A stretch of 64,000 nucleotides of DNA. Source: Malus domestica (taxonomy: Eukaryota > Streptophyta > Magnoliopsida > Rosales > Rosaceae). The position numbers and the translations under genes were made by a program. The notes under the pieces are model-generated. The model worked only from the letters and a program-made list of their open reading frames with translations. It was not told the origin of the DNA and made no database searches. Positions within the stretch are counted from its first letter, which is position 1. Every line of letters begins with the position of its first letter. This document shows, one piece after another, positions 14,195 through 52,868 of the stretch. The stretch covers positions 41,303,501 through 41,367,500 of the forward strand of contig NC_091670.1 of NCBI RefSeq assembly GCF_042453785.1. The letters run 5' to 3'.

Positions 14195-14846
14195 TTAACA
14201 TCGTATAAAATATTAAATAAATCTCACGTACTTAATACACTTCATATTTGCTTTTTTAATTAAAAATTATCTTAATACACCCCACATAGTTCCCCATAAT
14301 ACCCTCACACCCCACATTCTTAATATATACCTTACATTTTCTACATGCACTCCATATTTTCTATACACCTCACATTTCTCAAATTTTATAAAGCTTTTAA
14401 TTTGGACAAAAAATGCCAACTGAAATTTTGACAAAAGATGCCGCCTAGGATTTAAAGCATATGTGGATTGTTTTCAATTCCACCATTAAAGCTCATGTCG
14501 TATGTTTTTAATATTTGGTGGTAATTTTAGGTGTTTAATTCTTCATGTAATCCCTATGATTCCTCAAAGATGAATACGAACATAGAAGCTTGAATAACGC
14601 ATCAAAAGAAAGATTAAATAATTATCGATGTCATCAAAATCACTAAAACAATACAAAAATATGAAGTCTTACCTCATGTGAAACTTTGGAAACATCAATT
14701 TCGTGTTTCATTCGTCAAAAAATATTTTTTTTCTCAATCAACATGTTTGCAGTTTCATTGGTTATGGTTTTGTTCAACAATGGAGAGTCGGAGGGGTTTT
14801 GATAGTTGAAGAAGATAAATAATACGTTAAAAGTTATTTGGGGTGT
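14195..14846 (+). mobile_element. Dispersed element with a terminal minisatellite, copy B
   Basis: Inverted relative to copy A at 2613-3840. It begins with the minisatellite side (ATACACCCCACAT-type units, 14260-14395) and ends with TTGATAGTTGAAGAAGATAA and then TTATTTGGGGTGT, both found in reverse in copy A. It breaks off exactly where the LTR starts at 14847, so the LTR element landed in or beside it. Confidence 0.55.
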
Positions 14847-16208
14847 TGTTTGGACCCGATTTTACATCATCGGCCCGAGTAATTGAGGTCGTTGAGTGAG
14901 CATGGTTCTTAACCGTCGGATGAGAAAGTTAAGATAACTTGTCATTGTTAAAAGATAATATTATGGTTTTTAATCATAATAATTATCTTTCAATAAATTA
15001 TCTCGATTTTCTTGTACAAAATAAATGGGATAAAAATCATAGCCCCAACGAAGAGACAGGCGGAACAGTCCGAGTTAATTTGGATTTGTTAGCAGTGTAT
15101 TGTGTGGATCAGAGCAACTCGACTTGGCTTCTTATCACGTGGCATAGCATGGGATTTGCAAGGCTTGAATAATGGTGAGATAGGAGACCTAAACAGGCTG
15201 GGTTATTTATGGATGTTGTCAGATGAATTGAATTGATGATGGACTTGGCATGAGTGCCGTGTGAAAGGCTACTAGCTATATAATATATATATATAGCTGC
15301 CGTATAGTCTGCATGCCATGTGAAAGGCGCAAACTATATATAGATATAGATATATATAGATATATATAGATATCTATATATATATATATATATAGATATC
15401 TATATATATCTATATCTATATATATATATATAATTGGTTGCTGTTTAGATGAACGTTATTTGTTCAAATCCAAGCATGCATGTTATCTTGGGATTCGATG
15501 TGATAAGACTAAACACAAGGATCGAATTTGGTTGCATTTTGACTAAGTTCAGAGTCTTGGGAGTAGTAACTAGTAAGTCTTATCCAAGGCTCAAGTCAGT
15601 GGAAGAGTTTTAATAGCTTAGGAGTCTTTATCAGCTTATCAACCAGCGCATACTCGTCCTTATAAATACAAGACACTGTGCAACATTTCAGTCTTTCCAA
15701 TTCAACACACAAATTTGCCCTACGCAAACTCTCTCAACAACTTTGAGATTTTTATTTTCTTTTTCCGCCAACACATCTTCAGTTTGGATAAACAGCACTG
15801 TGAAGGCAACCGGTGATACATTTAGTTCGGATAAACAACATTATAGCCATAGAACTAGCTAACCGTGGAACACCTTCAGTTTGGATAAACAGCACTGTGT
15901 CAAGACCGACTGGTTATCTATCCAAGTCTCAGTCGGGAAAGACTTTTGGGTCTTTATTGGCAGAGGTCATCTCATTAGCTTTTTCGGCGATGTGAGGTGT
16001 TACAGTTTACTAAGGCTCGACACATTGAACGCTGAGTTGTTTTTATGATTGGATACTCATGAGTAAGTTTTAGAGTTCGACATTCTGACGGTCGAACCAT
16101 ATTTACCATTAAGACATATATCTGTTTTAAGTATATGTGCCCCTATACTGTAGTGTTGATTCGGTGTGCTTATACCCTTACAAATATAATCACCGTGACC
16201 GAATCATA
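14847..16208 (+). repeat. LTR copy 1 of the LARD-like element
   Basis: Begins TGTTTGGACCCGATTTTAC. It contains a leader-like stretch TATAAATACAAGACACTG (about 15662) that fits an LTR core promoter, followed by repeated CAGTTTGGATAAACAGCACT motifs. It shares nearly all of its length with the other two copies. Confidence 0.75.
15276..15433. repeat. AT/ATAG low-complexity palindrome
   Basis: A run of TATATATAGATATC-type units inside LTR copy 1, longer here than at the same site in copies 2 and 3 (16611-16628 and 24228-24297). This looks like local expansion of a simple repeat. Confidence 0.7.
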
Positions 16209-16931
16209 AAATTGAGGCCGTTGAGTGAGCATGGTTCTTAACCGTCATATGAGAAAGTTAAGAAAATTTGGTATTGTTAAGAGATAATATTATGGTTTTT
16301 AATCATAATAATTATCTTTCAATAAATTATCTCGATTTTCTTGTACAAAATAAATGGGAAAAAAATCATAGTCCCAACGAAGAGACAGGCGGAACAATCC
16401 GATTTAATTTGGATTTGTTAGCAGTGTATCGTGTGGATCAAAGCAACTCGGCTTGGCTTCTTATCATGTGGCATAGCATGGGATTTGCAAGGCTTGGATA
16501 ATGGTGAGATATGAGACCTAAGTAGGCTGGATTATTTATGAATGTTGTCAGATGAATTGAATTAATGATGGACTTTGCTTGAATGTCGTGTGAAAGGCTA
16601 CTAGCTATATAATTATATATATATATATGGTTGCTGTTTAGATGAACGTTATTTGTTCAAATCCAAGCATGCATGTTATCTTGGGATTCGATGTGATAAG
16701 ACTAAACACAATGATTGAATTTGGTTGCATTTTTTACTAAGTTCAAAGTCTTGGGAGTAGTAACTAGTAAGGCTTATCCGAGGCTCAAGTCAGTGGAAGC
16801 GTTTTAATAGCTTGGGAGTCTTTATCAACTTATCAACCAGCGCATACTCGTCCCTATAAATACAAGACACTGTGCAACATTTCAGTTTCTCCAATTCAAC
16901 ACACAAATTGCCCTGCGCAAACTCTCTCAAC

Positions 16932-17919
16932 TAGGGGTGGGTTCAAAAAACCGAAAACCGAAAAAAACTGAAAACCAAACCGAACCGAAACCGAAAAAAC
17001 CGAACCGAACAAAAAAACCGAACCGAATTGAAAAAACCGAACCGAACCGAATTCTTTTGGTTCGGTTCGGTTTTAGTGATCTAGAAACCGAACCAAACCG
17101 AACCGAACCGAATTAATTAAATTAATTTTTTTATTTAATTATTTGTTTTGGATATTATTTTCTAAACCCAATTTGTAAGTTAAAATATGCTAAACCCAAT
17201 GTGTTGCCAAACTTTAAGCTCAAAATATTAAAAAAAAGTCCTATAAAAACTTTAAACCCTAACCTATTATTTATCCCCCATATAAGGTTCCGGAGCCAAA
17301 CCTCATCCTGAAGTACCTACATCCATCTCCATAGCACTGTCTACTTTTGTCTCAGCTTTCTTTTCCAAATCTACTCTCATATAACATGTAACAGAATCTA
17401 TAAACATTTATTTCGGGTAGATTACTTAGGGAATTTGTGATGGAAAAGAATCCAACACACACTAAATAAATCCACCCACGCATTTCTTTTACTAATCAAG
17501 TTGTCAACATGCAGTTACAAGCAAACAACCCTGATCTTTGAACAACATCATACAATTTAACTTTTCTAAGTCATTTGTACGATTTTTGTGTTGTGATGTT
17601 GTTAGTTTGGACTTTGGAAGACTTGATTGATGATTTTAGTTCAACTTTAAATGTTTATTTTCATTGTCTTTGATTATAGTTAGAATGCTTGTGTTATGAT
17701 TGTGTTGGATACGTTAAAATTTAAAATTTCAATGTTTTTCATTTTTTGAAAGAAAAAAAAAACAAAAAACCGAAACCGAACCGAAACCGAACCAAAAAAA
17801 ACCGAACCGAAAAAAAACCGAACCGAAAAAAAAATGAACCGAACCGAACCGAACCGAAATTTCGGTTTGGTTTCGGTTTTGGCAAAAAACCGAACCGAAT
17901 TAAACCGAACCCACCCCTA
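16932..17919. mobile_element. hAT-like element with AACCG arrays, 8-bp duplication
   Basis: Ends are TAGGGGTGGGTTC and GAACCCACCCCTA in inverted order, flanked by the exact duplication CTCTCAAC at 16924-16931 and 17920-17927. Both sub-terminal regions are arrays of AACCG/AAACCGA with their reverse complements (16950-17115 and 17755-17905), each able to fold on itself. The middle (17120-17750) is AT-rich and non-coding. A 101-codon frame over the right array is a by-product of the repeat. Confidence 0.85.
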
Positions 17920-18356
17920 CTCTCAACAACTTTGAGATTTTTATTTTCTTTTTCTGCCAACACATCTTCAGTTTGGATAAACAGCACTGTGAAGGCAACC
18001 AGTGATATCTTCAGTTCGGATGAACAACACTATAGCCGTAGAACCAAATGACCGCTGAACACTTTCAGTTTGGATAAACAGCACTGCGTCGAGGTCGACT
18101 GGTTATCTATCCAAGTCTCGATCGGGAAAGAATTCGGGTTTTTATTGGCAGAGTTCATCTCATTAGCTTTTTCAACGAAGTGAGGTGTTACAGTTTACTA
18201 GGGCTCGGCACATTAAACGCCGAATTATTTTTATGATTGGATACTCACGAGTAAGCTTTAGAGTTCGGCATTCTGATGGCCGAACCATATTTACCATCAA
18301 GACATATATCTGTTCTGAGTATCTTATACCCTGGTGTCGATTCGGCGTGGTTATAC

Positions 18357-21300
18357 TGTGAAATCCTGTTCCTGGACTTCACTATTGCAAACTACACTTT
18401 AATATTAAGGAGTTTTTATAATTTATATTTTATTTTTGGGAATTTAATATTTATGGGGTCCTAATTAGTTTGTAAAGGGACCAATAAAAAAAAAGAAAAG
18501 AAAAAGGGGAGAGGGTGCAACGAATCAGGAGAGGAGGAAAATGAGGGACCAATAGGGGGAAGAAGGAAAAAATGAAAAGGGAAGGAAAAGAGGGTGGTTG
18601 CGGGAGAGAAATGAGGGAACATGGGAGGCCAATCAAAAAAAAAGAAAAGAGAGAAAGGGGAGGGGTGCAGAGCACCCAACCTGAACCCTTTCTGTGACCC
18701 ATACACCCGCACCCAACCCGGTTGAATTTCCGGCCACCTCCACCATAGTTTAAGGCGATTTTCACCCCTTTAACACCTGCAAACATCATTACGCCCCTTC
18801 TCCTTCGTTGATCACCCAAAAATCGACAAGAATTGGTTCGATTTCATTAAGGTTTACACCGTGGGTGCCGCGAGGAACCATGACGAAATCCACCAAATGT
18901 GAAACGATATCCTCCAATTACCACCACCATTAGACTTCCCTTGGACCTAGGAACAAATCTCGATCAGTGGTTGAGGCGTCGAAGTACATTTTGAGGTTGA
19001 ATCGGAGAACACCCAATCCTAGGGTTGCATCGGATTAAGGCTGATTTTAGGTGTTTCCCGGCCGAATTGGACTTCGTCCCAGGTATGAAAATTTCTCATC
19101 TCACTAAGAACTACTTGCCTGTAAAATTTGGTAATTTTTAGAAATAGTTGGAATTTTCCGGTGAGTCGAGGCGGCCGGTCACCACGTGCAGCGGCGCATG
19201 GGCCGAGACCCCCACCTACCCTTCCTAGATTAATTTGGATATCATGATTCCATATGTGAAGTTTGATTGACGAAATCTCATCGTATGACTATAATTTGGA
19301 TAGAGATTGCCCTTTGGACCTTAAGTGAATGGACGATCTGACCGTTGGATCGTCACCAAACTTTAATACGTTATAGTATGTAATAGTTGAGGACCTTAGG
19401 AAGTTACGGATCGGGAATTTGATGTACGGATCTTCCTGAAGTGGATTTGTAAGTTTGTAAAATAAAACGTTGACCGCGCACCGGAAATTGTGATTGACGA
19501 AGATCCGATCGTTGGATCGTAATGAAATTTAGTATGTTGTTCTTGAAACATAATGTGGGCTGTGGGAAGTTATGGATCCGAAATCCGATGTACGAATCTT
19601 CATGATCAAATTACGTAGAGTTGTGGACCTTATCGTTGACCGAGAGTTGACTTGTGGTAACCAGTCTTAAACCGTTCTAAATATTAAAATTAGTACTACG
19701 AGACTAATTGAAATCTAGTGGGCCTATAGTGGTAAGATATCGACTTGAATATATGGAATATGATTATTATCTTAATTTCTTATATTAGTATCATTTGTGA
19801 ATATGAATTGGTCTTATAAATATGATTTCTATTGAAATGTTATTTTTATATATTTAGCCATAGACCAATGCTAATTAAATATGATTTGGCTTGTGTATTG
19901 ATGATGTTTGTGATATATATGTGTTTAAATTAACTTTTAATAATGTGAATGATAATTATGATGAATGATATGGCAATTATGGAATCTAAATATTGTTTGA
20001 TAATTATTTGGATATGATTGCCAACTGAATACCTATTTGAACTTGGCACTATTACCTAGCATGAGATGGAGATGAAAGTCAGGAGATGAGTTAGGTACTT
20101 TATTAGATTTTTAATAGGAATAGTAATTGAAGGATTCCTTGTGTTGTGCTCCGTATGACTAGATGCTGGTTGATATGTGGAGTTGATAGCATGTATGCGT
20201 ATAATTATGTATAATGTGTGATGATGAGACTGCACCATGTAGCCGTAGTGCATGGATGGTCCTGGTTGGTTAATCCGCATTAGGGGACCATACTATTTAT
20301 GGATCGTGCTTGGTTAATCCACATTGGGCGATCCTTATGGCCATTTATACTTATGGGTGATCATGCTTGGTTAATCCACATTGGGTGATCACTGCCTAAC
20401 AATTATGTAGGTATGACTCTGCTTGGTTAATCCGCGTTGGGGAGTCATTACCTACTTAGTTATCCTAGTCCTGCTTGGTTAATCCGTGATAGGGGACCAT
20501 AATATTTATGGATCGTGCTTGGTTAATCCGCGATAGGTGATCCTTATATCTTTGGTATAGCCGTACACGCACATTTAGGGGTGATCATGCTTGGTTAATC
20601 CACGATAGGTGATCACTGTCTAACCGATACATAGGAGTGACTCTGCTTGGTTAATCCGCAATAGAGGGTCACTGCCTACTTGGTTACTGAAGAGGTGGTT
20701 CTGCTTGGTAGGGGGCCACTTCCTGTTTGGTTACATATGTAGGCTTCAGCTGAATTGCGTCTTTCTAACCCTAGTTTTTAATGCACATATGAAAGATGGT
20801 TTTTTAGAATTTTGTGGTTTGAATTAGAAAAGTCGTTGGATGTATGGGTGACTCCTCTGGAGTTTTTAGCGGCTTGATTATGATTTCATAAAGCATGATT
20901 CTATACTCGACATTTATAGATTGTGATTGATGGTCTGATTTTATTGAATATCACATACTTGTATTATTGTCACTCACCCGGGCTTTGCATCTTAACCAAG
21001 TTCTGATTTGCTAGTGCACTATTCCCTTGATGTAGGCACTGAATATGACAGGTCTGGGTAAAGTACAAGAAGTAGCTTGGTGTTTTAGTTCTGTTGAGTG
21101 GTCTGGAACCCAAGACTGTTGGATTTTGTTGAGTGGTCTGGATTCCTTGCTCTTGCTCATTTCCATAAGGTTAGTCTAGAACCTTAGATTTGAATGAATG
21201 AGAATTACCACGATAAACCTTGTGAATATAAATTAGAATTATCAGGTTATTACTTAGAATCCAGGCAGGGAGTTATGTAGAATTCCTTTAATTAATTTCG

Positions 21301-21893
21301 TGCATTGATATGTGATCTGGTTGACTGATTAACGTAATTAAATGTTAATATCGTGTCTCCTTGACTCAGGGAATGGGTTACTTGAGGTGATTGTGGAATG
21401 ATGTTGAATATGATTGTTATTAATATGATTAGATCAGTGATCAATGCAACTAGAGGATACTATTGTGCTTTGTTGATTCTTTGATATATTACATGATATG
21501 AATTGCGATTTTATGTTGAAACATAATGATATATATGATGGATGAAATAGAAACCTTGATTGTCATGTGGGTTGTTATGTAGCTTGAATTAAATAATTTC
21601 ATACTTGTCAAGTCCAAATGTTTGATTGAGGAATGTTATGCCTTTTGGCTTAAACAAACTGTGTTATATGTCGAGTTGTAGCGAAGACGAACTATGAATG
21701 GCTTGATCCATGTGTAGGGTACGTAGGCAGTCTAACGAGAAGGTTGCAGCCATAAAATGAACAAAAATTTACTTCGCAATTCGAGGCATGGCATGTGCTT
21801 GGTACATATCTCGGAGACGGGTATGTTAGATATATGGTTATTTGATGACATCACGTGTCAATCCTGGACGTACGTCGGGATCGGGGCGTGACA
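18357..21893 (+). mobile_element. 3.5-kb TG...CA unit, probable solo LTR (Ty3/gypsy type)
   Basis: Starts TGTGAAATCC and ends GGGGCGTGACA, with the 5-base duplication TATAC at 18352-18356 and 21894-21898. TG/CA ends with 5-base duplications are what LTRs have, and the closing GGGGCGTGACA is common on plant gypsy LTRs. No primer site, gag or pol was seen inside, so it is best read as a solo LTR of 3537 bases, unusually long. Internal related stretches occur at 19330-19420 and 19500-19600 (CGTTGGATCG and GGAAGTTAYGGATC). It holds the hairpin array described separately. Matching duplications argue for intact edges. Confidence 0.7.
20257..20720. repeat. Array of nine hairpins with a shared loop and varying arms
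   Basis: The loop TGCTTGGTTAATCCGCRWTRG recurs about every 50-60 bases, and each copy is flanked by short arms that differ from unit to unit yet pair with each other: TGGTCC/GGACCA (20257, 20285), GGATCG/CGATCC (20301, 20329), GTGATCA/TGATCAC (20357, 20386), ATGACTC/GAGTCAT (20413, 20442), GTCC/GGAC (about 20468, 20494), GGATC/GATCC (20510, 20539), GTGATCA/TGATCAC (20581, 20610), GTGAC/GTCAC (20637, 20668), GTGG/CCAC (about 20695, 20715). The fourth has outer arms GTAGGTA and TACCTAC as well. Units 1-4 and 5-8 form a higher-order repeat. It is not CRISPR: no constant repeat with unique spacers, and the genome is a plant's. Confidence 0.85.
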
Positions 21894-22114
21894 TATACCC
21901 TTACAAATATAATCACTGTGACCGAATCCGACGCTGACGAATTATGAACTCCTTAGAACTAGCAGCCTTGTCTTCCGGCTCTAGAACCCGAAAGCCAAGA
22001 ATGTTCCTTCCTCGGCTGCAATCGCAAGATCGAGAAGTCAGCAGCGCATCCAACGCAACATCAACACATTTTACTCTGCGCACCACGTAGGCTTGGTAGT
22101 TTTTAGAGTCAACA

Positions 22115-23792
22115 TTTTGGCACGCCCGGTGGGACCAGTGCTAAAACTACAAAGTTCACATGATATATCAAGATCTCAGTGAGGGTGAGATTTGGCGCCT
22201 ATTAAAGGAAAATGCCGAGAGGTGTAACAAACTCCTTAACCAGATCATTGAAGCATATAAAGAAAAGGAAAAATCTTTCTCTCAAATGATAAAGGTGAAG
22301 GTTCATCACAGCTTACAAGATCAATGGTTAAAAAAAGGCAGAGCTCGATTTGATGAGTGGTTCGATAAGAAAACGCCGTTTTGTCCTAGGTTCAAATAAA
22401 TTCCATTTGAAGAATGGTTGGATCAAAAGATTGGGGGGCAATTTTTCGCTCCGGACACAATAAAAATTCGGCCTCAGGATATTGCCAAGACGGCCAAAGA
22501 AACACCTAGGCCACATGTTGTCTCGGTTGAGACTGAAAGTGTAGTAGGCATAGAAGAAAGAGTTCAAGTTTATGAGCCAAAAGTCGATTTAGAAAATGAT
22601 TTATTAGAGGAGTGCTCTAATGATGAACAAGGCCGAGACATGGGCCTAGCCGAAAAAACCACGCCAATCGATACGATTATTGGCGATAAAGCCAATATAG
22701 AAATATCTCATTCGGCTAAGTTAATCGAGTTAAAAGCCGAAATTGACGAAATTATTATGCCTGGAGGGCATAATAATTGTTTAACACATTCGGCGGCCAA
22801 TGAAAAATATTTCACCAAGTCAAAAGTATTTGGAAGTGATTCTTTATTCGGCATAAAGCAAAATCAAATTGAGAATTTTGATATAAAAAGTTCTCAGCTC
22901 GGAATAAAACATCGTTGGCCTCCTCCTCTTTATAGTTCGTCCACTGTCATTTTCTTCTAAAAAAAAAGGATGAATAAATTATTTTCTTAACCATTCGGCC
23001 TTTTAGGCCCATGCATAAGAAAATAAGGGGGTAACAAGGTGGTGCGGCAATCCAAAAGATGGTGTGCTCGGCTTAAAAATTAAAGTCTTCGGTAGACTAT
23101 TTTGGTCGAAACCCACAACACGAACCACCGATAAAATTGGGTATCCTGGACAATTAAAAAGAATATTTGCAGCATGCTCTACACCTACCCATCCTCGGCC
23201 ATTCTTCCTTACCAACATTTCGGCCATGGGAGTTTAGTTTTTCCACAAGAAAGATTGGCCGAATAAAGACCGCGGATTTGATAGTAGCTTTGGAGTCTAT
23301 ACCTTTGAAATATTGATTTGGATGCCTCATGTTTTGGATGGAGTTAACTGTTCAGAGGTTGGTTTTCCAAAGATTGGTTATATATATATATAAGAGTCGG
23401 CCATGAGGTGGAGTATATATATATATATATAAAAACAAGCAAATGCCATGCTGCCAAGTCGGCCAAATTTTTAAGAGAAGGAAAATGGGGGATTGGAAGA
23501 CTATCAGAGTGTTTATATATATAGGCAGGCCAAGCTCGGCCAAAGTTTGATTATCATGCCAAGCTAAGATAAAAATTGAGATCGGACCGAGGTCAACGAG
23601 TTGGCCAAGATGCAAATTGGCATCTTGTACGAGTTCAATTATGGGTTCTTAATAGCATGGTGTGCTTTTCTTTTGCCAATAAATTTTTGTCTTCTTCGGC
23701 GATACCATGAGATTTTATTGGGCACAAAGACTTAATTTCCTTAACCATTCGGCTTACAAGCCAAAGTTCAAGGAAACTGGGGGGGGGGGCAA
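22115..23792 (+). mobile_element. Internal region of the LARD-like element
   Basis: Starts with TTTTGGCACGCCCGGTGGGA, a primer-binding-type site, and ends in the polypurine run before LTR copy 3. Lysine- and glutamate-rich frames at 22160-22960 may be relics of a gag-like or element-specific protein; they match no named domain that I can recognise. The rest is non-coding, with TATATA runs at 23380-23440. A fossil with several breaks. Confidence 0.6.
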
Positions 23793-25170
23793 TGTTTGAA
23801 CCCGATTTTATGCCATCAGCCCGAGTAATCAAGGCCGTTGAGTGAGCATTGTTCTTAACCGTCGGATGAGAAAGTTAAGATACTTTGCTATTGTTAAGAG
23901 ATAATATTATGGTTTTTAATCATAATAATTATCTTTCAATAAATTATCTGGATTTTCTTGTACAAAATAAATGGGATAAAAATCATAGCCCCAACGAAGA
24001 GACATGTGGAACATTCCGATTTAATTTGGATTTGTTAGCAGTGTACCGTGTGGATCAGAGCAACTTAGCTTGGCTTCTTATCACGTGGCATAGCATAGGA
24101 TTTGCAAGGCTTGGATAATGGTGAGATAGGTGACCTAAGTAGGCTGGGTTATATATGGATGTTGTCAGATGAATTGAATTGATGATGGACTTGGACTGCA
24201 TGTCGTGTGAAAGGCTACTAGTTATATAATTATATATATAGTTGCCGTATAGTCTGCATGCCATGTGAAAGGTGCAAACTATATATATATATATAATTGG
24301 TGGCTATTTAGATGAACGTTATTTATTCAAATCCAAGCATGCAGGTTATCTTGGGATTTGATGTGATAAGACAAAACGCAAGGATTGAATTTGGTTGCAG
24401 TTTTTACTAAGTTCAGAGTCTTGGGAGTCTTTATCAACTTATCAACCAGCGCATACTCGTCCCTATAAATACAAGATACCGTGCAACATTTCAGTCTCTC
24501 CAATTCAACACACAAATTGTCATGCGCAAACTCTCTCAACAACTTTGAGATTTTTTTTTTCCGCAACACATATTTAGTCTGGATAAACAGCACTGTGAAG
24601 GCAACCGGTGATACCTTTAGTTTAGATAAACATCACTATTGCCGTAGAACCAACCGATCGCAGAACACCTTTAGTTTGGATAAACAGCATTGCGTTGAGG
24701 CCGACTGGTTATCTATCCAAGTCTCGGTCGGCAAAGACTTTCGAGTTTTTATTGGCAGAGGTCATCTCATTAGCCTTTTTGGCGAGGTAAGGTGTTACAG
24801 TTTACTAGGGCTCATCACATTGAACGCTGAGTTGTTTTTATGATTGGATATTCACGAGTAAGCTTTAGAGTTCGGCATTCTGAGGCCAAACCATATTTAC
24901 CATCAAGACATATATTTGTTTTAAGTATCTGTACCCCTATACTCTGGTGTCGATTTGGCGTGCTTATACCCTTACAAATATAATCACCGTGACTGAATCT
25001 GACGCCGACGATTTGTGAACTCCTTAGAACTAGCAGCCTTGTCTTCAGACTCTAGAACCCGAAGGCCGATAGTGTTCCTTCCTTGGTAGCAATCACAAGA
25101 TCGAGAAGTCAGCAGCGCACCCAACGCAATATCAACACATTTTACTCCTCCGCCGAGCTCGGCCGAAGAG
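23793..25170 (+). repeat. LTR copy 3 of the LARD-like element
   Basis: Begins TGTTTGAACCCGATTTTATG right after the polypurine run and matches copies 1 and 2 to about 25148. It is followed by TTGGCACGCCC, the same motif that follows copy 2, which fits an element built of recombined copies. Confidence 0.7.
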
Positions 25171-41989: not shown

Positions 41990-43150
41990 CTAATGGTCGG
42001 ATGACTTTAAAGCCTCCAGAATCACCTTCGTCTGATCTCTCATTAACTCGGACCGCTTCACAAAAAGCTCCAATTCCGCAACATGCAGCTTCCTCCATTT
42101 CTCCTTCAACTCAGCTCGCTTGGGCCCTCCAATCAACTCCAAACCCTGTTTCACCACACCCTCCGGCAACCCCAGCTTGCCGAAACCCTTGTCAAACCCA
42201 ATCACCTCACTCAAACTTTCCGAAGAGCACGGGTTCAGACCAAAATCCACCTTCGCAGCCTCCTTTGGCGGCTCCGGTGAGCTCAAACTATCAGCTCTTA
42301 TCGAAGCGAGAGTCTTGGTATTTCTAACTTTCCCATTAGACTTTGGCTGTTCAGACACCCCGCTGACACCACTCGACCCCTCCCCGCTACTGCTGCTACC
42401 CCATACCTTCTTGGACAAGTCAAACACCTTCTGGTCATGAGGTTTAGTAGGATTAAACTTCTTCTTCTTCACATTGGTCTCATACTTCTTCTTCAGCCGA
42501 CGAATCTTATCTTGCAATTGGGTTTTGTTCACATCAACCTTCAGCGATTTCTTGATAAATTCATGGAAGGCACCCATATCGGAATACGGGTCCGCCCCTT
42601 TCTTGGTGGTGTAATCAACCATGCCTTTCAAGATAATTATCTCATCCTCATCGCTCCAAATCCTCTGGAACAGCTTGGACTTCTTTGCTTCCTCCTCGAG
42701 CTGGTCCGGGTCCTTCTTCTTGAGCCGCTTTGAATCCTTCGGCTCGGTCTCGCTAGGCCGTTTCGACCCAGATTTCGCCACCGGCGTAGCAGTAGCCGCG
42801 GGCTTTGATCTGGGCTTCTTTGTCTTCGGCGTCTCTTCCATTGGCTTCGAAGCAATCGGCTTCACCACCAAATCCTTATCCACATCGGAATCGGAATCGG
42901 CCTCGGAACCAGAGGATGAAGACTCCGGCTTCGAATTGGCGGCGGAGGAGTCCGGTTTCTTGGGTGGCGGCTTTTTCTCGGAAACCGGTGCGGAAGACGA
43001 GGTCTTCGGAGGCAGAGGCTCTTCGGGTTCGGAATCCGACCCAGATCCGGATTCCTCCTCTTCCCCTTCTTCTTCCGACGAGACTTCCTCATCCTCCGCC
43101 GAAGAAGCTGCCGGGGGTTCGTCCAGCGGAGATGGGCGCTTGGGAGCCAT
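41990..43150 (-). CDS. GeBP/storekeeper-family transcription regulator
   Basis: Intronless, 386 residues. The N-terminal half is acidic and serine-rich (SSEEEGEEEESGSGSDSEPE) then basic (KRPSETEPKDSKRLKKK, a nuclear signal). The DUF573 domain typical of GLABROUS1 enhancer-binding proteins runs from about residue 160 to 250: RIWSDEDEIIILKGMVDYTT, then DKIRRLKKKYETNVKKKKF and DQKVFDLSKKVWG. The C-terminal part (about 310-386) has GFDKGFGKLGLPEGVVKQGL and a heptad-like helix ending VILEALKSSDH, as in the family's dimerisation region. GeBP proteins bind DNA in the nucleus and act in trichome and cytokinin pathways; targets of this one cannot be told. The start is the first Met in context. Confidence 0.9.
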   Translation of the reverse strand: MAPKRPSPLDEPPAASSAEDEEVSSEEEGEEEESGSGSDSEPEEPLPPKTSSSAPVSEKKPPPKKPDSSAANSKPESSSSGSEADSDSDVDKDLVVKPIASKPMEETPKTKKPRSKPAATATPVAKSGSKRPSETEPKDSKRLKKKDPDQLEEEAKKSKLFQRIWSDEDEIIILKGMVDYTTKKGADPYSDMGAFHEFIKKSLKVDVNKTQLQDKIRRLKKKYETNVKKKKFNPTKPHDQKVFDLSKKVWGSSSSGEGSSGVSGVSEQPKSNGKVRNTKTLASIRADSLSSPEPPKEAAKVDFGLNPCSSESLSEVIGFDKGFGKLGLPEGVVKQGLELIGGPKRAELKEKWRKLHVAELELFVKRSELMRDQTKVILEALKSSDH

Positions 43151-44424
43151 GGGAAGAGATGGAGATTTAGGGTTTTTGGGAAATTAGGGATTCGAACTGG
43201 GCACTTGAGAGACTGACCTTTTTCTTTTATGAGAATTTGTGTGCGCGAAAAAGGCAAATAAAAGTCACCGCGTGGAAGTTGAGGAGGTCAAGCACCTTGA
43301 AAAGTAGCACTGTGTGTGAACGATATAGGACCGTTGGATTTAGGTGCTCCGTTACCTTTTATTCCTGACCCTTCGATTGGATGAAGTCATTAAACAATAT
43401 TATGAAATAAAACTTTTAGTCAAAATGATTACCGAGAATAACATAACTCATCGCTTTGGTCTTCGACAATGAAAGTCGATATCAATGGTCTTTGATTTTT
43501 TCCATCGTAAATCATTTTGATATTTTCGAAAAAAATCTGTCAATATATTTCATAAAGTAAAGAAGCTGATTTGATAAAAATGATCATCCACATGCCAATT
43601 TAACAAAATATTAAAAAAAATTATTCTACACGAAGATCAATATCGAAATGCGATTAATTAGTTAAATCATTTGTTGCATTAATTTGCATCTTCTAGAAAT
43701 CAAAATACAGAGTTGCTTTACCACATAGCAACTTATTTTAATGGCTGCAGCTTGTTTTGAATTGATTGGGAGGGGGCAAATATAAACAGTGAATCAAGTA
43801 ATTAGCCTTCTTTGTTCTATTAGTCTTGTCTAGAGGTGGTAAAATTAACACATTCGATTGTTAATCGGAACTCATTAAGATTTGTTTAATTTGATATCAC
43901 TATAATATAAAGGTGAGATAGGTAGTGGTGATGATGTTGTAAGATGAAATCAAATTAAATGGATCTTAAAGGGTACCCATTAATAACTCAATGTGTTGAT
44001 TTGCCACATATAGTCTTGTCCACCAAAACCTACAGAAGTTTGTGAAATTGCGATCACAGTGAATTTCTTATTTCGTTAGTTTTATTTGTGCATATATTTC
44101 TCGTATATATTTACCATTTGGGCGTCACTTTTTTTATTCTATTAGCCTTGTATGTGTTGAATAATGTGAAAATCGTCCCACATCGGTCATCTTAATTACA
44201 AAATAATTGCAATTTGTATTAAATAGTTTCACGCTTAATTGTATTGATATCCGGTGTGATTGGTAGTGGCCCGTTGACCCATATATGTCTTTGATTTATA
44301 GCTTAAAAGACATTCCAAATTTCCCATAGATTATAGCGGATGCAAACCTCAAATCAAATTTGTGGAATTCAGGTAATTTCTTTTCTCATTTTTTCTAATC
44401 CCTTTTTCTTTACGGTCTTTTGAT
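43151..44424. other. Divergent intergenic region
   Basis: Between GeBP (minus) and the F-box gene (plus). AT-rich; no gene or clear repeat seen. Confidence 0.5.
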
Positions 44425-44635: not shown

Positions 44636-44782
44636 AAAACTGTGTGCATATCAATTGACTAGCTGGCTTAATATTAACCTTCTTGTTCTAATTCTGATTT
44701 GGGATTTGTTCTCTGGCACTCTAGCTTTGAATCTCTCGTGCTCGTGTTCTTCTAGTGTCCTTGAAATATATTGAGATCGACA

Positions 44783-45871
44783 ATGATGTGTTACTACCAA
44801 CGAAGAAAAAGGCCGACACAAGTATCGTCAGAGCTTCCTTTTGAAATTATCAGTGAGATTTTGAGTTGGCTTCCTGTATTGTCTTTGTTGAAATTCAAGT
44901 GCGTGTGCAAGCAATGGTTTTTGTTGCTTCAAGACTACAAGTTCATTGCAAAGCATAGCAATCAGACCTGTTGCATCCTCTCACCTTACTATCATTGCGA
45001 ATGGGAAAACAAATCGATTGTCACTGTTAGTGATAAAAAGTATGAGCTCAAAGGTTACTGTTCTGGCTTGTCTTTGGAGAAGAGCACAACATCTCAAGTT
45101 TGCCGCATTAGAAATCCTGCGACCCGCAAAGTACTCTACTTGCCAGATGCACACGATGAGGGTTCCAAAGAATTAATGGACCTCGGTTTGAATTCACTCA
45201 CTGGTGAGTGTAAAGTGTTCCGTGTCTATTTCGATACGGCACAGGAACAGGTAGGTATTGAAGTGATAACAATTGGAAAGGATGAAATGTGGAGACCTTT
45301 GCACAAACAAAACAAGAATTGGCTGGGACGAGGCAAACCGGTGCTGAAACAATCTCGCTGTGGGGCAGATAAGGTTGAATGGGCTCTTCACTTACCCGAA
45401 ATTATAACCGAGGGACGTAAGTTGTGCTTACAAATTCATTCTCTTGATCTGTGGAGTGAACGTCTCACCACTACTACTCTGCCTCAAGGAGCTTTCATAG
45501 ATTTGGAGAATCTCTGGCCTTTTCTTTGGGATAATCGTCCAGCCGTTGCTGGTATAGTAGGGGGGGACCTTCACATCTTGGTGTTAGTAGACTTCAAGGA
45601 GCACAAATGGAGTCAAAACAAGATCATCTTTCCCTTGAAAAATTTAGAGGTCGACGACACAATTTTGACGGATAAAATTGCACTCATACAAGGTCGTTCA
45701 AATCAACTCGTGTTTCTAAACGGAGAACAACTTATTTCATATGACATTGAAAAAAAGACTGTTAAGGTTTTTGCCAATTTAGAATCCCTGAAGGAACGAA
45801 TACCTCGACTTAAGTCAACCCTCGTTACTCTCAAGGAAATGACATCAGAAATTAAAGGAGCACAAGACTAG
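44783..45871 (+). CDS. F-box protein
   Basis: Single-exon F-box gene, 362 residues from the ATG at 44783 (in-frame sequence upstream begins with TTG, not ATG). The F-box occupies about residues 14-55: SELPFEIISEILSWLPVLSL, then LKFKCVCKQWFLLLQDYKFI. The rest resembles the F-box-associated region of plant substrate adaptors (QVCRIRNPATRKVLYLPDAH and a beta-propeller-like tail). Expected role: substrate receptor of an SCF ubiquitin ligase through SKP1; substrate unknown. It heads a tandem set whose two other members are decayed. Confidence 0.88.
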   Translation: MMCYYQRRKRPTQVSSELPFEIISEILSWLPVLSLLKFKCVCKQWFLLLQDYKFIAKHSNQTCCILSPYYHCEWENKSIVTVSDKKYELKGYCSGLSLEKSTTSQVCRIRNPATRKVLYLPDAHDEGSKELMDLGLNSLTGECKVFRVYFDTAQEQVGIEVITIGKDEMWRPLHKQNKNWLGRGKPVLKQSRCGADKVEWALHLPEIITEGRKLCLQIHSLDLWSERLTTTTLPQGAFIDLENLWPFLWDNRPAVAGIVGGDLHILVLVDFKEHKWSQNKIIFPLKNLEVDDTILTDKIALIQGRSNQLVFLNGEQLISYDIEKKTVKVFANLESLKERIPRLKSTLVTLKEMTSEIKGAQD

Positions 45872-46689: not shown

Positions 46690-47326
46690 GAGTGGTGCGA
46701 CCAGAAGCATCGGAGCTTCCCTTTGAGATTATCGTTGAGATTTTGAGCTGGTTGCCTGTAGAGTCTTTGGTAGGTTCAAGTGTCTGTGCAAGTTATGGTG
46801 TTTGTTGATTGGTCAGGACTATGAGTTTATCGCAAAACATGAGAGCCTGGCCTGTTACGAGCGGCTTCCTACCGATTATAATTTCAACATTGAAAGCCGT
46901 TATGCTGGCTTATTTCAGGAGAAGAGTGGTTCTTCTCAAGTTTGTCGGATCAGAAACCCTGCAACCCGACAAGTACTTTACTTGCCAGATGCACATGAGG
47001 GTGTCGTACAAATGGACATCATTTTCAATTCACTCACTCATGAATGTAAAGTGGTATGTGTTCATTATCTCGATCGAGAAGCAATGCACTTAGGATTTGA
47101 AGTCCTAACGGTAGGGAAGGATGACAAAATATCCTTGAAACAACCAAACCAAAACTTTTGGGAACATGACAGACTGGTGGTGGAACAACATTTTTCACTT
47201 CAGATAAGGATGGAGGGATTGTTCATTTACCTGAAATTCTAACAGATGGACATGATTTGTACCTAGAAGTTCATTCTCTTGATTTGTATGAAAACAAAAC
47301 GTTGCAGCTTATGTAACTAAAAGGTT
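46690..47326 (+). pseudogene. F-box pseudogene, second tandem copy
   Basis: Homologous to 44783-45871: ASELPFEIIVEILSWLPVES, then after a frame change EFIAKHES, QVCRIRNPATRQVLYLPDAH, then a further frame change into LPEILTDGHDLYLEVHSLDL and an early end. The start codon region is missing, and at least two frame shifts break it. The 5' upstream sequence differs from copy 1, so the copy is incomplete at that side. Confidence 0.85.
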
Positions 47327-47736: not shown

Positions 47737-48113
47737 TATTGGAAGTAGGGTTCAATGTTGGAAGAATATTGGAAGAATAATGCAAGAAGGGTCTGTAGGG
47801 TTCAAAGGGTCCGTAGGGTTCAATGATAATGCATCCATTTGTTTAAGTTCTTTGATAGATAACAGCTCATCCTAGTGCTATGTTAGCTGGTTGTTATTCC
47901 TCCAGCTTTGTAAAGCTAATTAATAGTTTAAGTTAGAGAGAGTGGAAGGCACAATGATGCTTTGTTTAGCTGTCAGGAAGGTCATAATGATGCTGCGATT
48001 GCTGCCATTATTCTCTTCCTTTCCGCTCCACCCTCCTGCTTGTTTTTCTTTTCATATATATGCTGTCCTTGTAGCTGGTTCTTCCTTATGAAAATTACAT
48101 CATAAATTCATCA
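47737..48113 (+). repeat. Left LTR of the copia element
   Basis: Starts TATTGGAAGTAGGG and ends AAATTCATCA. Same length and, by eye, same sequence as the right LTR. Confidence 0.95.
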
Positions 48114-48191
48114 TGGTATCAGAGCGGGCATCATCCTGAGCCAGTTCTGTATATTGAAACTGCTGTGTTTATTTTTTTTTTTTCAAAAACA

Positions 48192-51100
48192 ATGGCAGAT
48201 GGAAGTATCATTGCTTCTCCATCTGTAAGCGCTTCTGAAATGGATATCAATCCAAACCAACGACTCAGTTCAGTATTATTGAATGAGTTTAATTATTTGC
48301 CATGGGCAAGGGCTGTTAGTCTTGCTCTCGGTGGAAGATCCAAACTTGGTTTCATCAATGGCAGCCAACCTGCACCAAATGCTTCTTCTCCAGAATATGG
48401 AGGGTGGCTATGTAAAGATCAACTGGTCATGTCATGGTTGTTAAATTCTATGGAAAGGAATATTGCTGAAATCTTCAGCTATTCCGAGTCATCTCTCATC
48501 CTTTGGACCACCGTGAAGGAGATGTATGGCAATCAAAACAATGCAGCTCGCATCTTTCAACTCAAGAAGGATATCTCCAACATACAGCAAGAAGGTAAAA
48601 GCTTTGTCCAACATCTTGGTTCTTTGAGAAGCATGTGGAATGAGTTAGATGTGTACAGACCTCACACAACTGATCTCTCTGTGCTCCTTAAAAGAACTGA
48701 AGAAGATAAAATTTTTCAATTATTGTCTAGCTTGAGCTCAGAATATGAGGATTTGAGAAGTCACATTCTCATGAACTCGGAGCTACCATCCTTCACTAGT
48801 ATCTGTGCAACTATCCAACGTGAGGAAGTAAGGAGAAAAGTCATGAACAATGGTATAAAAACCAACGTGACAGAAGCTAGGGCTTACCTGACAAATGAAA
48901 AAAGATATAAAGGGAAAAATCCTCATTTAAAGTGCCTACATTGTGACAACATCGGGCATGTGAGAGACAAGTGCTGGATCCTACATCCAGAACTCAAACC
49001 TGACTTCATGAAGGATAAATCCGCACCAAAGACAAGTCGAGCACACCCTCGTGCCAACACTGCAACATCTTCATCTATCAACAATGTTGATACCTATCAA
49101 CAGTTCACTGCAAATCCTGCCACCCTTTTAAATGAGTTCGCAGCGTATCTTCAACAAAAGAAAGGAAAAGAGGATGGATCGGTTGATCATAAAGATGGAA
49201 GTACTACTGCATTGATGGGCAAATTTGCAGGTTTTTTAGCTGATGCCGATTATGTACCTCAGACAGACTTGAAAGGTATCGTAACTGCTTTCCAAACTGC
49301 TCTTAAAATAAATGAGTTACATGATTTTTGGGTTGTAGATTCTGGTGCCACAGACCATATGACTAATCAATTGTCAAAGTTACATAGATTTGAGAAACTA
49401 CATAATCATTCACATGTATCTGTTGCTAATGGTGAAGGTGCTAGGATTGTAGGAAAGGGAAAAATCCACCTGATATCTGATCAAATAGAGTCTATGGCCC
49501 TATATGTCCCATCATTTCCATTTCAACTTCTCTCAGTGGGAAGAATCACAAATTCCTTAAATTGTTTGGCCATTTTTTCACCAAAAACTGTCATTTTTCA
49601 GGATTGTATAACCAAGAGGACGATTGGTGAGGGGTTTTACCTTGATGGTCTCTATTACATATCAAAAAGCTCTTCCTGTGGATTTCATGCCAAGTCAAAG
49701 TCCATCCATACCTCCATTCAAGCTTTCTCTTTGTGGCACCAACGTCTAGCTCATCCATCTCAACCTATCTTATCCACCTTATTTCCTGACTTAGGCAAAG
49801 AATCAACCCACTGTGAAACTTGCCATTTGTCAAAGGCAACAAGACTACCTCTAGGGTCTTCGATGTCTAGAGTTTCTCACTTTTTTGAGCTTGTACACTC
49901 TGATATATGGGGACCAACAAGTGAATCTTTTGATGGTTATAAATATTTCATAACTTTTGTTGATGATTATTCAAGAGCCACCTGGTTATATTTGTTAAAA
50001 TCAAAAAGTGAGGTGATGGAAGTGTTTAAGGACTTTCACAATCTTGTCAAAAATCATTTTTCTTCTCAAATCAAAACCCTAAGGTCTGATAATGGCACAG
50101 AATACATGTCCCAAGTCATGACTCAATATTTGAGCAACAATGGCATCATACATCAAACTAGCTGTGTTGGCACACCCCAACAAAATGGTGTTGCCGAGAG
50201 AAAAAACCGAGATCTCCTTGAAAAAACTAGGGCATTGATGTTACAAATGAATGTACCAAAACGTTTTTGGTCTCAAAGCGTCATGACAGCAGCTTACCTG
50301 ATCAACAGGTTACCTAGTAGGGTTTTGGGGTTCAAATCCCCAATGGAGATAATCAAGAACAGAAAGGTGGACTTATCTCACCTTAAAGTCTTTGGATGCA
50401 TCTGTTTTGTTCATGTTCAGTCATTACATCGAGACAAACTTGATCCTAGGGCAACTAAATGCATTTTCCTTGGCTACTCGTCCACACAAAAAGGGTATAA
50501 GTGTTATAATCCACAACTTAAGAGATTAATTGTTTCAAGGGATGTTCAATTTCATGAAACTAACTCTTATTACAGTAAGTCTCTGGATAGTACAAGTCAG
50601 GGGGAGATTATCTTGGACAGTTTTCCACTGCCAAGGACTGAGATATTCAACAATGCGGGTGATCAACCTCACACAATGGATCTTGTGGCTCCAAATCAAC
50701 CGAATTCATATGACGACAGCAACATGCCTGTAGAAGATGAAACTCTACGTGGTATTGATCCTGAAGAACCTTCAGAAGAGTCTCCTCCTACCATACCTCG
50801 ACGAAATCCAACTCGTGAGAGACACCCACCAGCAAGACTGCAAGACTTTGTTACGTACAAGCTCAAGCACCCCTTATCCAACTACTGTTCTTACCAAAGG
50901 TTGTCTCCTAATTACACTGCCTATTTGAGTAATATATCTGCGCATGAAGAGCCTCAATCATTTCAAGAAGCCAACCAATCCCAAGTGTGGCAGCAAGCAA
51001 TGCAGGATGAACTGCATGCACTCGATCAACATAAAACCTGGAGCATTGTGCCACTGCCCAAAGGAAAGAAGATAGTAGGCTGCAGATGGATATACAAGAT

Positions 51101-52484
51101 TAAATTCAACTCGGATGGGTCTATTGAAAGACACAAGGCACGATTAGTGGCCCGTGGCTTCACTCAAACATTTGATGTGGATTACAAGGAAACCTTTGCT
51201 CCCGTTGCTAAGATGAACACAGTGCGTGTACTCTTGTCTGTGGCTGTCAACAAAGGATGGCCTATGTATCAAATGGATGTAAAAAACGCCTTCTTACATG
51301 GTGAGCTTGAAGAAGACGTCTACATGAGATTACCACCGGGTCACTCTCAAAGTCATAAACAGGATGTTGTGTGTAAACTACACAAATCAATTTATGGTCT
51401 TAAACAATCACCGAGAGCCTGGTATGCTAAGCTCAGTTCTGTTCTTATCAGTGTTGGTTTTGGAAGAAGCAATGCGGACTCCTCTTTATTTGTACGTTCA
51501 GGCACCGCTGGTACATTAGTTGTTCTTGTGTATGTTGATGACTTGATCATCACCGGAGATAACCCTGAAGAAATCAAAGAACTCAAGCACTTCCTTCAGC
51601 AGCGCTTTGCAATAAAAGATCTTGGTGTTCTGAGATACTTCCTTGGCATCGAAATGGCTACCTCTCACAAGGGCTTCTTCCTTAACCAGCGCAAATATGT
51701 TCTGGATCTCCTTAAGGAATCAAATATGAGTGATGCTAAACCGGTTCCTACACCTCTCGACATTAAACTTAAGGTCAGCTTAGAGGGTCAATCTCTTCCA
51801 AACATAAGTTATTATCAGCGGTTGGTTGGTAAGTTGATATACCTAACCATCACAAGGCCCGACATTACCTATGCTGTCAGTATTGTTAGCCAATTTATGC
51901 ACTCTCCCACGATGGAGCACTTTAACCTAGTCAAAAGGATACTTCGGTATCTAAAAGGTTCTGTGGGACGTGGTATAATCATGAAGAAAAATGCAAACAC
52001 TCAGATTACAGGTTATTGTGATGCAGATTGGGCTGGCAATTCCATTGATCGTAAGTCTACAACGGGATTTTGCACGTTTGTGGGAGGCAACCTTGTCTCA
52101 TGGAAAAGCAAAAAACAAACTGTTGTTGCAAGATCCAGTGCTGAGGCAGAATATCGGGCAATGGCATCTACCGCGTGTGAACTAATCTGGCTCAAAGGTT
52201 TACTGTGTGACTTAGGTGTTTTCAATCATCAATCCATGTCCCTTTTCTGTGACAATCAGGCTGCAATGCACATTGCTTCCAACCCAGTTTTTCACGAGAG
52301 AACCAAGCACATTGAAGTCGATTGTCACTATGTTCGTACACAAGTTCAATCTCAGGTTATCCAAACGCATTTTGTAAGGAGCTCGGATCAACTTGCGGAC
52401 CTATTCACAAAATCATTGGCCTCTCATCAGTTTCAACTTCTTCTTGGCAAGCTTGGATCCATCAATCTTCTGGATCCAGCTTGA
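48192..52484 (+). CDS. Copia Gag-Pol polyprotein
   Basis: About 1430 residues in the usual copia order. The Gag part (about 20-240) ends in a CCHC zinc knuckle CLHCDNIGHVRDKCW (about 248). Then come the protease motif WVVDSGATDHMT (about 380), the pre-integrase zinc motif LWHQRLAHPS (about 514), the integrase core with HSDIWGP, DDYSR and RSDNGTEY (about 569-640), reverse transcriptase with QMDVKNAFLHGELEEDVYM and YVDDLIITGD (about 1030-1115), and RNase H with GYCDADWAG (about 1273). Integrase before reverse transcriptase marks Ty1/copia. A longer in-frame start at 48165 exists, but the Met at 48192 has the better context. The lineage within copia was not settled. Confidence 0.93.
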   Translation: MADGSIIASPSVSASEMDINPNQRLSSVLLNEFNYLPWARAVSLALGGRSKLGFINGSQPAPNASSPEYGGWLCKDQLVMSWLLNSMERNIAEIFSYSESSLILWTTVKEMYGNQNNAARIFQLKKDISNIQQEGKSFVQHLGSLRSMWNELDVYRPHTTDLSVLLKRTEEDKIFQLLSSLSSEYEDLRSHILMNSELPSFTSICATIQREEVRRKVMNNGIKTNVTEARAYLTNEKRYKGKNPHLKCLHCDNIGHVRDKCWILHPELKPDFMKDKSAPKTSRAHPRANTATSSSINNVDTYQQFTANPATLLNEFAAYLQQKKGKEDGSVDHKDGSTTALMGKFAGFLADADYVPQTDLKGIVTAFQTALKINELHDFWVVDSGATDHMTNQLSKLHRFEKLHNHSHVSVANGEGARIVGKGKIHLISDQIESMALYVPSFPFQLLSVGRITNSLNCLAIFSPKTVIFQDCITKRTIGEGFYLDGLYYISKSSSCGFHAKSKSIHTSIQAFSLWHQRLAHPSQPILSTLFPDLGKESTHCETCHLSKATRLPLGSSMSRVSHFFELVHSDIWGPTSESFDGYKYFITFVDDYSRATWLYLLKSKSEVMEVFKDFHNLVKNHFSSQIKTLRSDNGTEYMSQVMTQYLSNNGIIHQTSCVGTPQQNGVAERKNRDLLEKTRALMLQMNVPKRFWSQSVMTAAYLINRLPSRVLGFKSPMEIIKNRKVDLSHLKVFGCICFVHVQSLHRDKLDPRATKCIFLGYSSTQKGYKCYNPQLKRLIVSRDVQFHETNSYYSKSLDSTSQGEIILDSFPLPRTEIFNNAGDQPHTMDLVAPNQPNSYDDSNMPVEDETLRGIDPEEPSEESPPTIPRRNPTRERHPPARLQDFVTYKLKHPLSNYCSYQRLSPNYTAYLSNISAHEEPQSFQEANQSQVWQQAMQDELHALDQHKTWSIVPLPKGKKIVGCRWIYKIKFNSDGSIERHKARLVARGFTQTFDVDYKETFAPVAKMNTVRVLLSVAVNKGWPMYQMDVKNAFLHGELEEDVYMRLPPGHSQSHKQDVVCKLHKSIYGLKQSPRAWYAKLSSVLISVGFGRSNADSSLFVRSGTAGTLVVLVYVDDLIITGDNPEEIKELKHFLQQRFAIKDLGVLRYFLGIEMATSHKGFFLNQRKYVLDLLKESNMSDAKPVPTPLDIKLKVSLEGQSLPNISYYQRLVGKLIYLTITRPDITYAVSIVSQFMHSPTMEHFNLVKRILRYLKGSVGRGIIMKKNANTQITGYCDADWAGNSIDRKSTTGFCTFVGGNLVSWKSKKQTVVARSSAEAEYRAMASTACELIWLKGLLCDLGVFNHQSMSLFCDNQAAMHIASNPVFHERTKHIEVDCHYVRTQVQSQVIQTHFVRSSDQLADLFTKSLASHQFQLLLGKLGSINLLDPA

Positions 52485-52491
52485 GGGGGAG

Positions 52492-52868
52492 TATTGGAAG
52501 TAGGGTTCAATGTTGGAAGAATATTGGAAGAATAATGCAAGAAGGGTCTGTAGGGTTCAAAGGGTCCGTAGGGTTCAATGATAATGCATCCATTTGTTTA
52601 AGTTCTTTGATAGATAACAGCTCATCCTAGTGCTATGTTAGCTGGTTGTTATTCCTCCAGCTTTGTAAAGCTAATTAATAGTTTAAGTTAGAGAGAGTGG
52701 AAGGCACAATGATGCTTTGTTTAGCTGTCAGGAAGGTCATAATGATGCTGCGATTGCTGCCATTATTCTCTTCCTTTCCGCTCCACCCTCCTGCTTGTTT
52801 TTCTTTTCATATATATGCTGTCCTTGTAGCTGGTTCTTCCTTATGAAAATTACATCATAAATTCATCA
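52492..52868 (+). repeat. Right LTR of the copia element
   Basis: Matches the left LTR over its full 377 bases by eye; preceded by the polypurine tract. Confidence 0.95.

Follow-up and report, generated by a model that had tools for sequence, protein, structure and literature searches.

The window, that is, the whole stretch of 64,000 nucleotides of apple (Malus domestica) DNA that was analysed, contains host genes and several kinds of repeats. The host genes encode a GeBP-like DNA-binding protein (41990-43183) and an F-box protein (44765-45871), with F-box-like DNA recurring at 46905-46998 and 47201-47287, and a kinesin motor stretch lies at 59670-60230. A complete-looking Ty1/copia element extends from 47737 to 52791, with terminal stretches of at least 300 nt that are 100% identical and one uninterrupted frame, in which rve, gag_pre-integrs and RVT_2 domains were identified in the two pieces scanned; it is probably a recent insertion. 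A 95-nt inverted repeat is 100% complementary between 2905-2999 and 59488-59582, 56 kb apart. An older retroelement-like repeat is present in three related copies (14840-18351 and 21894-25150). The second copy (from about 16169) is interrupted twice, by a segment whose ends are AACCG-rich (about 16940-17920) and by a solo long terminal repeat (LTR). No Rfam family was matched at gathering score within the window.

This solo LTR (18357-21893, + strand) is 3,537 bp long, begins with TGTGAAATCC and ends with GGGGCGTGACA (TG...CA), and is flanked by a 5-bp target-site duplication TATAC (18352-18356 and 21894-21898), all read directly in the sequence. It corresponds to what had been described in an initial annotation of this DNA as a 3.5-kb LTR-like unit. 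The LTR sits inside the older repeat, and its uninterrupted insertion site, GCTTATACCCTTAC, is present in a sister repeat near 16170. Among 27 related loci elsewhere in the genome where an LTR end was found after the hairpin array described below, five carry a tRNA-Met-type primer-binding site a few bases past that end, as expected of a 5' LTR (exact TGGTATCAGAGC in L152, L187, L190 and L191, one mismatch in L163). Because the primer-binding site follows the LTR end, the + strand of the window, which is the hairpin strand, is the sense strand. The exact pattern of LTR end and primer site occurs at 35 places in the genome, 18 of them with the length of this LTR family (28-29 nt), a count of exact matches, which passes over imperfect copies such as L163. 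Compared with the roughly 340 arrays extrapolated below, this suggests that many copies of the family are solo LTRs or fragments.

Two of the loci with a primer-binding site after the LTR, L190 and L191, lie about 33 kb apart on contig C11 and have near-identical arrays with the same unusual spacing; perhaps they represent a tandem element or a segmental duplication. Two C11 LTRs about 7.5 kb apart were also considered as the frame of one element and rejected; the stretch examined there, L223, has no similarity to the window. A Retrotrans_gag fragment (PF03732) at L223:162-545 (+), about 4 kb from a C11 array and in opposite orientation to the LTRs nearby, was taken for part of another element. 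No frame longer than 45 amino acids was found in L224, a 311-nt piece 2.3 kb downstream of the L190 LTR.

The coordinates and arms given for the array in the initial annotation were right, with units located at 20257-20718 on the + strand. Its count of nine loops is slightly high, as the loop is exact in seven units, has one mismatch in one and is truncated in one. The unit layout is six paired bases, 14 constant bases, eight variable bases and six paired bases, leaving a 22-nt interval between the arms. Hairpin 1 (type a, 20257-20290) has arms TGGTCC/GGACCA and a loop with one mismatch at 20263-20276. It is followed by hairpin 2 (type b, 20301-20334; GGATCG/CGATCC, exact loop 20307-20320), hairpin 3 (type c, 20358-20391; TGATCA/TGATCA, exact loop 20364-20377) and hairpin 4 (type d, 20414-20447; TGACTC/GAGTCA, exact loop 20420-20433), the last with a stem lengthened by outer bases. 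The same order of types then recurs in hairpin 5 (type a, 20466-20499; TAGTCC/GGACCA with one unpaired cell, exact loop 20472-20485), hairpin 6 (type b, 20510-20543; GGATCG/TGATCC with one G-U, exact loop 20516-20529), hairpin 7 (type c, 20582-20615; TGATCA/TGATCA, exact loop 20588-20601) and hairpin 8 (type d, 20638-20671; TGACTC/GGGTCA with one U-G, exact loop 20644-20657). Hairpin 9, of a fifth type e (20696-20718; TGGTTC/GGGCCA), has its interval shortened to TGCTTGGTAGG, with only TGCTTGGT of the loop kept, and is also present in the predicted fold. The repetition of a four-unit order had been noted before and is borne out by the likeness of the two halves of the array, 88% between 20259-20338 and 20468-20547 and 82% between 20351-20462 and 20575-20686.

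Within the window, the arms differ between units and stay paired, as had been claimed. Over the six-pair helix of the eight full units, 47/48 arm cells (97.9%) form standard pairs, and five of the six arm pairs show a change on both sides. The covariation score was 0.774 compared with 0.299 (sd 0.070) in shuffles, and it did not exceed 0.18 in registers slid by 1-3 columns, a comparison in which a structure derived from the same sequences tends to beat slid ones. None of 500 shuffles reached the observed percentage paired, number of cells changed on both sides or covariation score; the observed number of pairs changed on both sides was reached by 10/500 and that of further pair types by 58/500. 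When the eight 5' and 3' arms were re-paired in all 40,320 orders, 16 orders paired as well as the observed one, exactly as many as there are swaps within the four types. For the five majority arms (TGGTCC, GGATCG, TGATCA, TGACTC and TGGCTC, around a constant loop), the true matching was the best of 120, by 30 versus 29 pairs (28 versus 26 Watson-Crick). One invariant palindromic repeat is ruled out by the five arm types and the both-sided changes, so the arms are not simply parts of one longer palindrome.

A search of the genome (651 Mb in 19 contigs, the window being on C10) identified the exact 14-nt loop 574 + 547 = 1,121 times on the two strands and the reversed control 0 + 0 times, which rules out a chance repeat; a type c hairpin with exact arms and loop was found 106 + 107 times (control 0 + 0). 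The first 100 loop places listed, covering C1 and the first 30.6 Mb of C2, form about 33 clusters, from which some 340 arrays would be extrapolated for the genome. In the 69 loci examined, the window and 68 others, an array mostly has 4-11 units whose loops carry two mismatches at most. Duplicates were omitted, namely L183, which is the window itself, L184, L192 and L194, as were L001-L030, being the same places as other loci; the near-duplicates L190 and L191 were both retained in the counts, and L182 (one isolated match) and isolated matches elsewhere were dropped, leaving 559 units from 68 loci. Among viral contigs, at least 120 stretches had a loop match, and each of the 80 listed had one match only, so no array is present there among the matches listed.

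The units were found via the loop, and the arms were no search key. At the six arm positions of the 559 units in 68 arrays, 79.5% of cells were Watson-Crick, 9.2% G·T, 4.2% A·C and 7.1% other, compared with 10-32% Watson-Crick when the 3' arm was slid by -6 to +8; the arms of other copies thus pair far better than these slid controls. Typing by flanks gave 352 units with agreeing flanks, 73 with differing flanks and 134 without a confident flank type, and Watson-Crick pairing was 86.6% in the first and 76.5% in the second group. Artificial hybrids of unlike types reached 26-76% Watson-Crick; with G·T counted, a few attained 90-96% (5' arm e with 3' arm d 96%, a with d 94%) compared with 91-97% in true units. 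By arms only, both arms were of the same type in 390 of the 448 units assignable on both sides, a match that is largely linkage, as the arms are only 22 nt apart, so that the copies are not independent evidence.

The claim of compensatory change has to be divided by level. Between types, the majority arms differ at k = 1 (C-G, G-C, A-U), k = 3 (U-A, C-G), k = 4 (G-C, A-U) and k = 6 (U-A, G-C), giving at least five both-sided changes among the five arm types, with a one-sided C-G to U·G difference at k = 2. This second-position U·G is fixed in type d (89/112 units) and type e (61/65) and pairs on the sense strand only. Within types, 20 alternative Watson-Crick pairs were found in 352 units versus 14.1 expected, and 1,828 of 2,112 cells were Watson-Crick versus 1,816.2 on average in 1,000 permutations (sd 5.3; maximum 1,837), so that copies of one unit type show little covariation beyond independence. 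One-sided changes within types showed no strand asymmetry, with 86 G·T versus 80 A·C (p = 0.70); without the two columns of a recombinant unit the counts were 83 versus 50, the choice of columns being post hoc. Canonical spacing was present in 29/69 loci, and this set was used for parsimony, for the list of TATA-like words and for variation free of C>T/G>A. Parsimony placed 26 arm changes on internal branches, seven from Watson-Crick to G·T, seven to A·C, four to another mismatch and eight back to Watson-Crick. The recombinant unit combines a d-like 5' arm TGACCY with an a-type 3' arm GGACCA and has two A·C mismatches; this pairing was seen in 13 of the 43 units bearing the 5' arm TGACCY, and by parsimony it arose above 16 of the 29 arrays, with a return in five and a second gain above three. 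As a mispaired unit is common to many arrays, one stem may break without loss of the family. Compensatory change thus stands between about five old arm types, whereas the idea of one such change per copy does not, and no clear sign of ongoing compensatory evolution was found within types in the 352 units or by parsimony on the 29 arrays. Hairpins of different sequence and equivalent structure were established and then kept.

Arms and loop are also the less variable parts of the array. Mean major-allele frequency was 0.938 in arms and 0.867 in spacers, 0.783 in the 8 nt beside the loop, and 0.868 upstream and 0.894 downstream in the LTR (arms versus downstream, p = 0.00014); the loop value of 0.948 is biased upward because the loop was the search key, a bias of which the arms are free. 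Changes other than C>T/G>A amounted to 3.1% in arms and 2.8% in the loop; spacers (11.8%) and the 8 nt next to the loop (8.9%) had more. By column, with C>T/G>A excluded, arms and loop each differed from spacers (p = 0.0002), whereas their difference from the 8-nt stretch was marginal (p = 0.049 and 0.064). Parsimony on the 29 arrays ranked the regions likewise. The loop core TGGTTAAT was matched at each of its eight positions by 527-555 of the 559 units, all of which had been selected via the loop.

With regard to folding, the mean predicted energy per unit was -11.67 kcal/mol on the sense and -6.75 kcal/mol on the antisense strand, with the sense strand more stable in 532 of 559 units. After dinucleotide correction in 120 sampled units, z was -2.00 and -1.40, respectively; part of the gap in energy is composition. 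In 110-nt windows along the LTR, the array averaged -29.6 versus -19.6 kcal/mol elsewhere on the sense strand and -21.3 versus -14.6 kcal/mol on the antisense strand. Folding had been suggested as a check. By these 110-nt windows the array is the most folded part of the window LTR on the sense strand and, by mean, also on the antisense strand, and the whole array beats shuffles only modestly (z -2.17; 4/100 shuffles as good). A 110-nt sense window below -40 kcal/mol was found in 24 of 65 loci (of the 69, wide loci being skipped), with a median of minima of -39.2 kcal/mol. A candidate TATA box, TATAAAT, lies at 19815-19821 on the + strand, upstream of the array and at -448 from the first canonical unit. 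Of the 29 arrays, 18 have TATAAAT or TATAAAA between -200 and -265 relative to the first canonical unit, and six lack any TATA-like word in the 900 nt scanned. If the candidate is the promoter element, the array would lie in the 5' leader.

The initial annotation knew of no named element with this design, which has to be qualified, as Sirevirus LTRs carry high-copy clusters of palindromic motifs (PMC2829016, PMC10760457), in which the arms and not the loop are constant. The apple array is akin in kind to these Ty1/copia palindromes, the closest known system, with the opposite design. Both are high-copy dyad motifs that are clustered in a plant LTR, capable of forming hairpins and near a TATA box. 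In Sireviruses, constant arms (e.g. CACCGGAC...GTCCGGTG) surround a short variable centre, whereas here variable arms surround a constant 14-nt loop. A CGG-CCG core is described for all but one Sirevirus element, together with CpG islands, and the LTRs in nine Sirevirus rows measure 0.80-1.68 kb compared with 3.5 kb here (PMC2829016). Their motifs are placed upstream of the TATA box, in contrast to the apple array downstream of its candidate. The junction of LTR and primer site is CA-ATTGG-TATCAGAGC in Sireviruses (PMC2829016) and CA-ACTTTTTGTGG-TATCAGAGC and similar here. Sirevirus membership is ruled out by this junction and by the motif, which has no CGG-CCG core and no constant arms.

Motifs repeated in tandem are a further point of likeness to plant LTRs. 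The BII box of Tnt1 is a tandem cis-regulatory box of a plant LTR, and the apple array shares with such boxes the tandem repetition of a motif within the LTR. The available portion of PMC2829016 describes two or three repeats and mentions no co-varying flanks. The loop core TGGTTAAT is the same 8-nt core as in GT-1/Box II of plant promoters, described as a duplex promoter site and, in the available text, with no mention of complementary flanking arms (PMC4267404). In Ty3 (PMC11381356) and Ty1, dimerisation hairpins in the 5' region of the genomic RNA are likewise stem-loops whose loop is functional, a single palindrome being described for Ty3 in contrast to an array of 4-11 like units in the apple LTR. 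A text search of 5.39 million open-licence papers did not find the 14-mer loop, and no array with constant loop and variable arms was recognised in titles and abstract openings of open-licence literature among the matches listed. Of two Rosaceae leads, the text of PMC5659011 lacks the words 'hairpin', 'stem' and 'tandem', and the LTRs of redTE are given as 1,274 bp (PMC6445120).

The explanation we favour, at a little short of an even chance, is a cis-acting array of stem-loops, carried in the LTRs of a high-copy retrotransposon family, which would be transcribed and present one constant loop to a protein. It is preferred because complementarity is kept across differing arm sequences and because the predicted fold is stronger on the sense strand. 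Each unit would form a 6-bp, at times longer, stem closing a 22-nt interval, the first 14 nt of which are nearly invariant (core TTGGTTAATC), and transcription of the array might be expected from the TATA-like word that precedes 18 of 29 arrays by about 200-265 nt. The stem would be a scaffold for the loop, with Gag of the element or an RNA-binding protein of the host as the most plausible partner, several copies could provide avidity, and the array may aid packaging, dimerisation or expression of the element's RNA. A more specific and more tentative version, which we hold to be rather less probable, is a multi-hairpin RNA landing pad, in which 4-11 transcribed stem-loops offer their invariant loop, UUGGUUAAUC, as a docking site for Gag or a host RNA-binding protein and stems may vary as long as they pair. 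To our knowledge, little has been established about packaging and dimerisation signals in plant LTR retrotransposons. Evidence against the stem-loop explanation comes from the little compensation within types, from some hybrids of unlike types that pair about as well once G·T is counted, from the narrow lead of the true matching of majority arms and from the mispaired recombinant unit. The modest folding of the whole array, the share of composition in the energy gap, the marginal difference of arms and loop from the 8-nt stretch and the quality of the loop as a duplex GT-1-like site also weigh against it.

The best rival would be a duplex cis-regulatory array, in which the loop acts as a repeated GT-1/trihelix-type site, the arms as secondary sites or dyads, and RNA folding is incidental; judged from the sequence, this is possible, if on the doubtful side. 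The invariant core recurs letter for letter as an 8-mer in Box II of pea rbcS-3A (GTGTGGTTAATATG, core GGTTAA), which GT-1 binds (PMC4267404), LTR cis-regions can be tandem factor boxes (PMC2829016, PMC10760457), a TATA-like word is near the array, and one-sided changes lack strand asymmetry. A duplex array leaves the complementarity of differing arms unexplained, however, and Sirevirus motif boxes are reported upstream of the TATA box, whereas the best candidate here is upstream of the array. A purely mutational origin, with template switching having made and repaired the stems so that both-sided changes are single events without selection on pairing, appears unlikely. Such a mechanism has been described for RNA hairpins (PMC8794818), and both the small number of arm types, as block events would yield, and the independent decay of arms within types agree with it. 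Mutation alone gives no pattern in which arms and loop vary less than spacers and the surrounding LTR, and templated repair would restore Watson-Crick pairs where U·G is fixed in types d and e.

It is very unlikely that the hairpins serve mainly as templates for small RNAs that silence the family, a role proposed for Sirevirus palindromes (PMC10760457). The 24/65 loci below -40 kcal/mol pass the pre-miRNA-like threshold of that source, which is missed by 41/65, and under a silencing handle the element itself would not be expected to conserve loop and arms; silencing may be a possible consequence of the array. Least probable of all, and hardly to be expected, is an array of kissing loops for RNA dimerisation. 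The stretch GGUUAAUC is self-complementary with two G·U pairs, the loop core is the most conserved stretch, and Ty3 RNA is reported to dimerise via a short palindromic stretch near the tip of a hairpin (PMC11381356). Full palindromes are rare in the apple loops, though, with GGTTAACC in 3/559 and GATTAATC in 9/559 units, and the commoner variants GGTTAATT (26/559) and AGTTAATC (20/559) break the symmetry.

A repeated hairpin with a constant loop, in some hundreds of LTR copies as extrapolated, offers something definite to probe, to test for binding and to compare with small RNAs. If the duplex GT-1 explanation were true, the LTR would spread arrays of a host promoter motif. Under either, a design opposite to that of Sirevirus palindromes helps to separate structure-based from sequence-based recognition.

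Other copies and other parts of the LTR provided some minor observations. For the stretch that directly follows the array, the window LTR has its closest relatives at C10:37920833, C16:33240542 and C1:16290508 (87-88%); none of the three is among the 40 array matches that were scored, and no exact loop lies near the C1 copy. Arrays may have been shortened, diverged or lost in some LTR copies. Spacers after the type d and e hairpins (20452-20465, 20676-20689 and 20723-20739) contain partial echoes of the loop (CTTAGTTATCC, CTTGGTTAC and TTTGGTTAC) without clear arms, which are perhaps decayed units. The LTR also carries GATTAAC at 21327-21333, complementary to the loop bases GTTAATC. The same word was found 300-1100 nt past the last unit in 19 of the 29 loci that were long enough and could be due to chance or be a long-range pairing partner of the loop.
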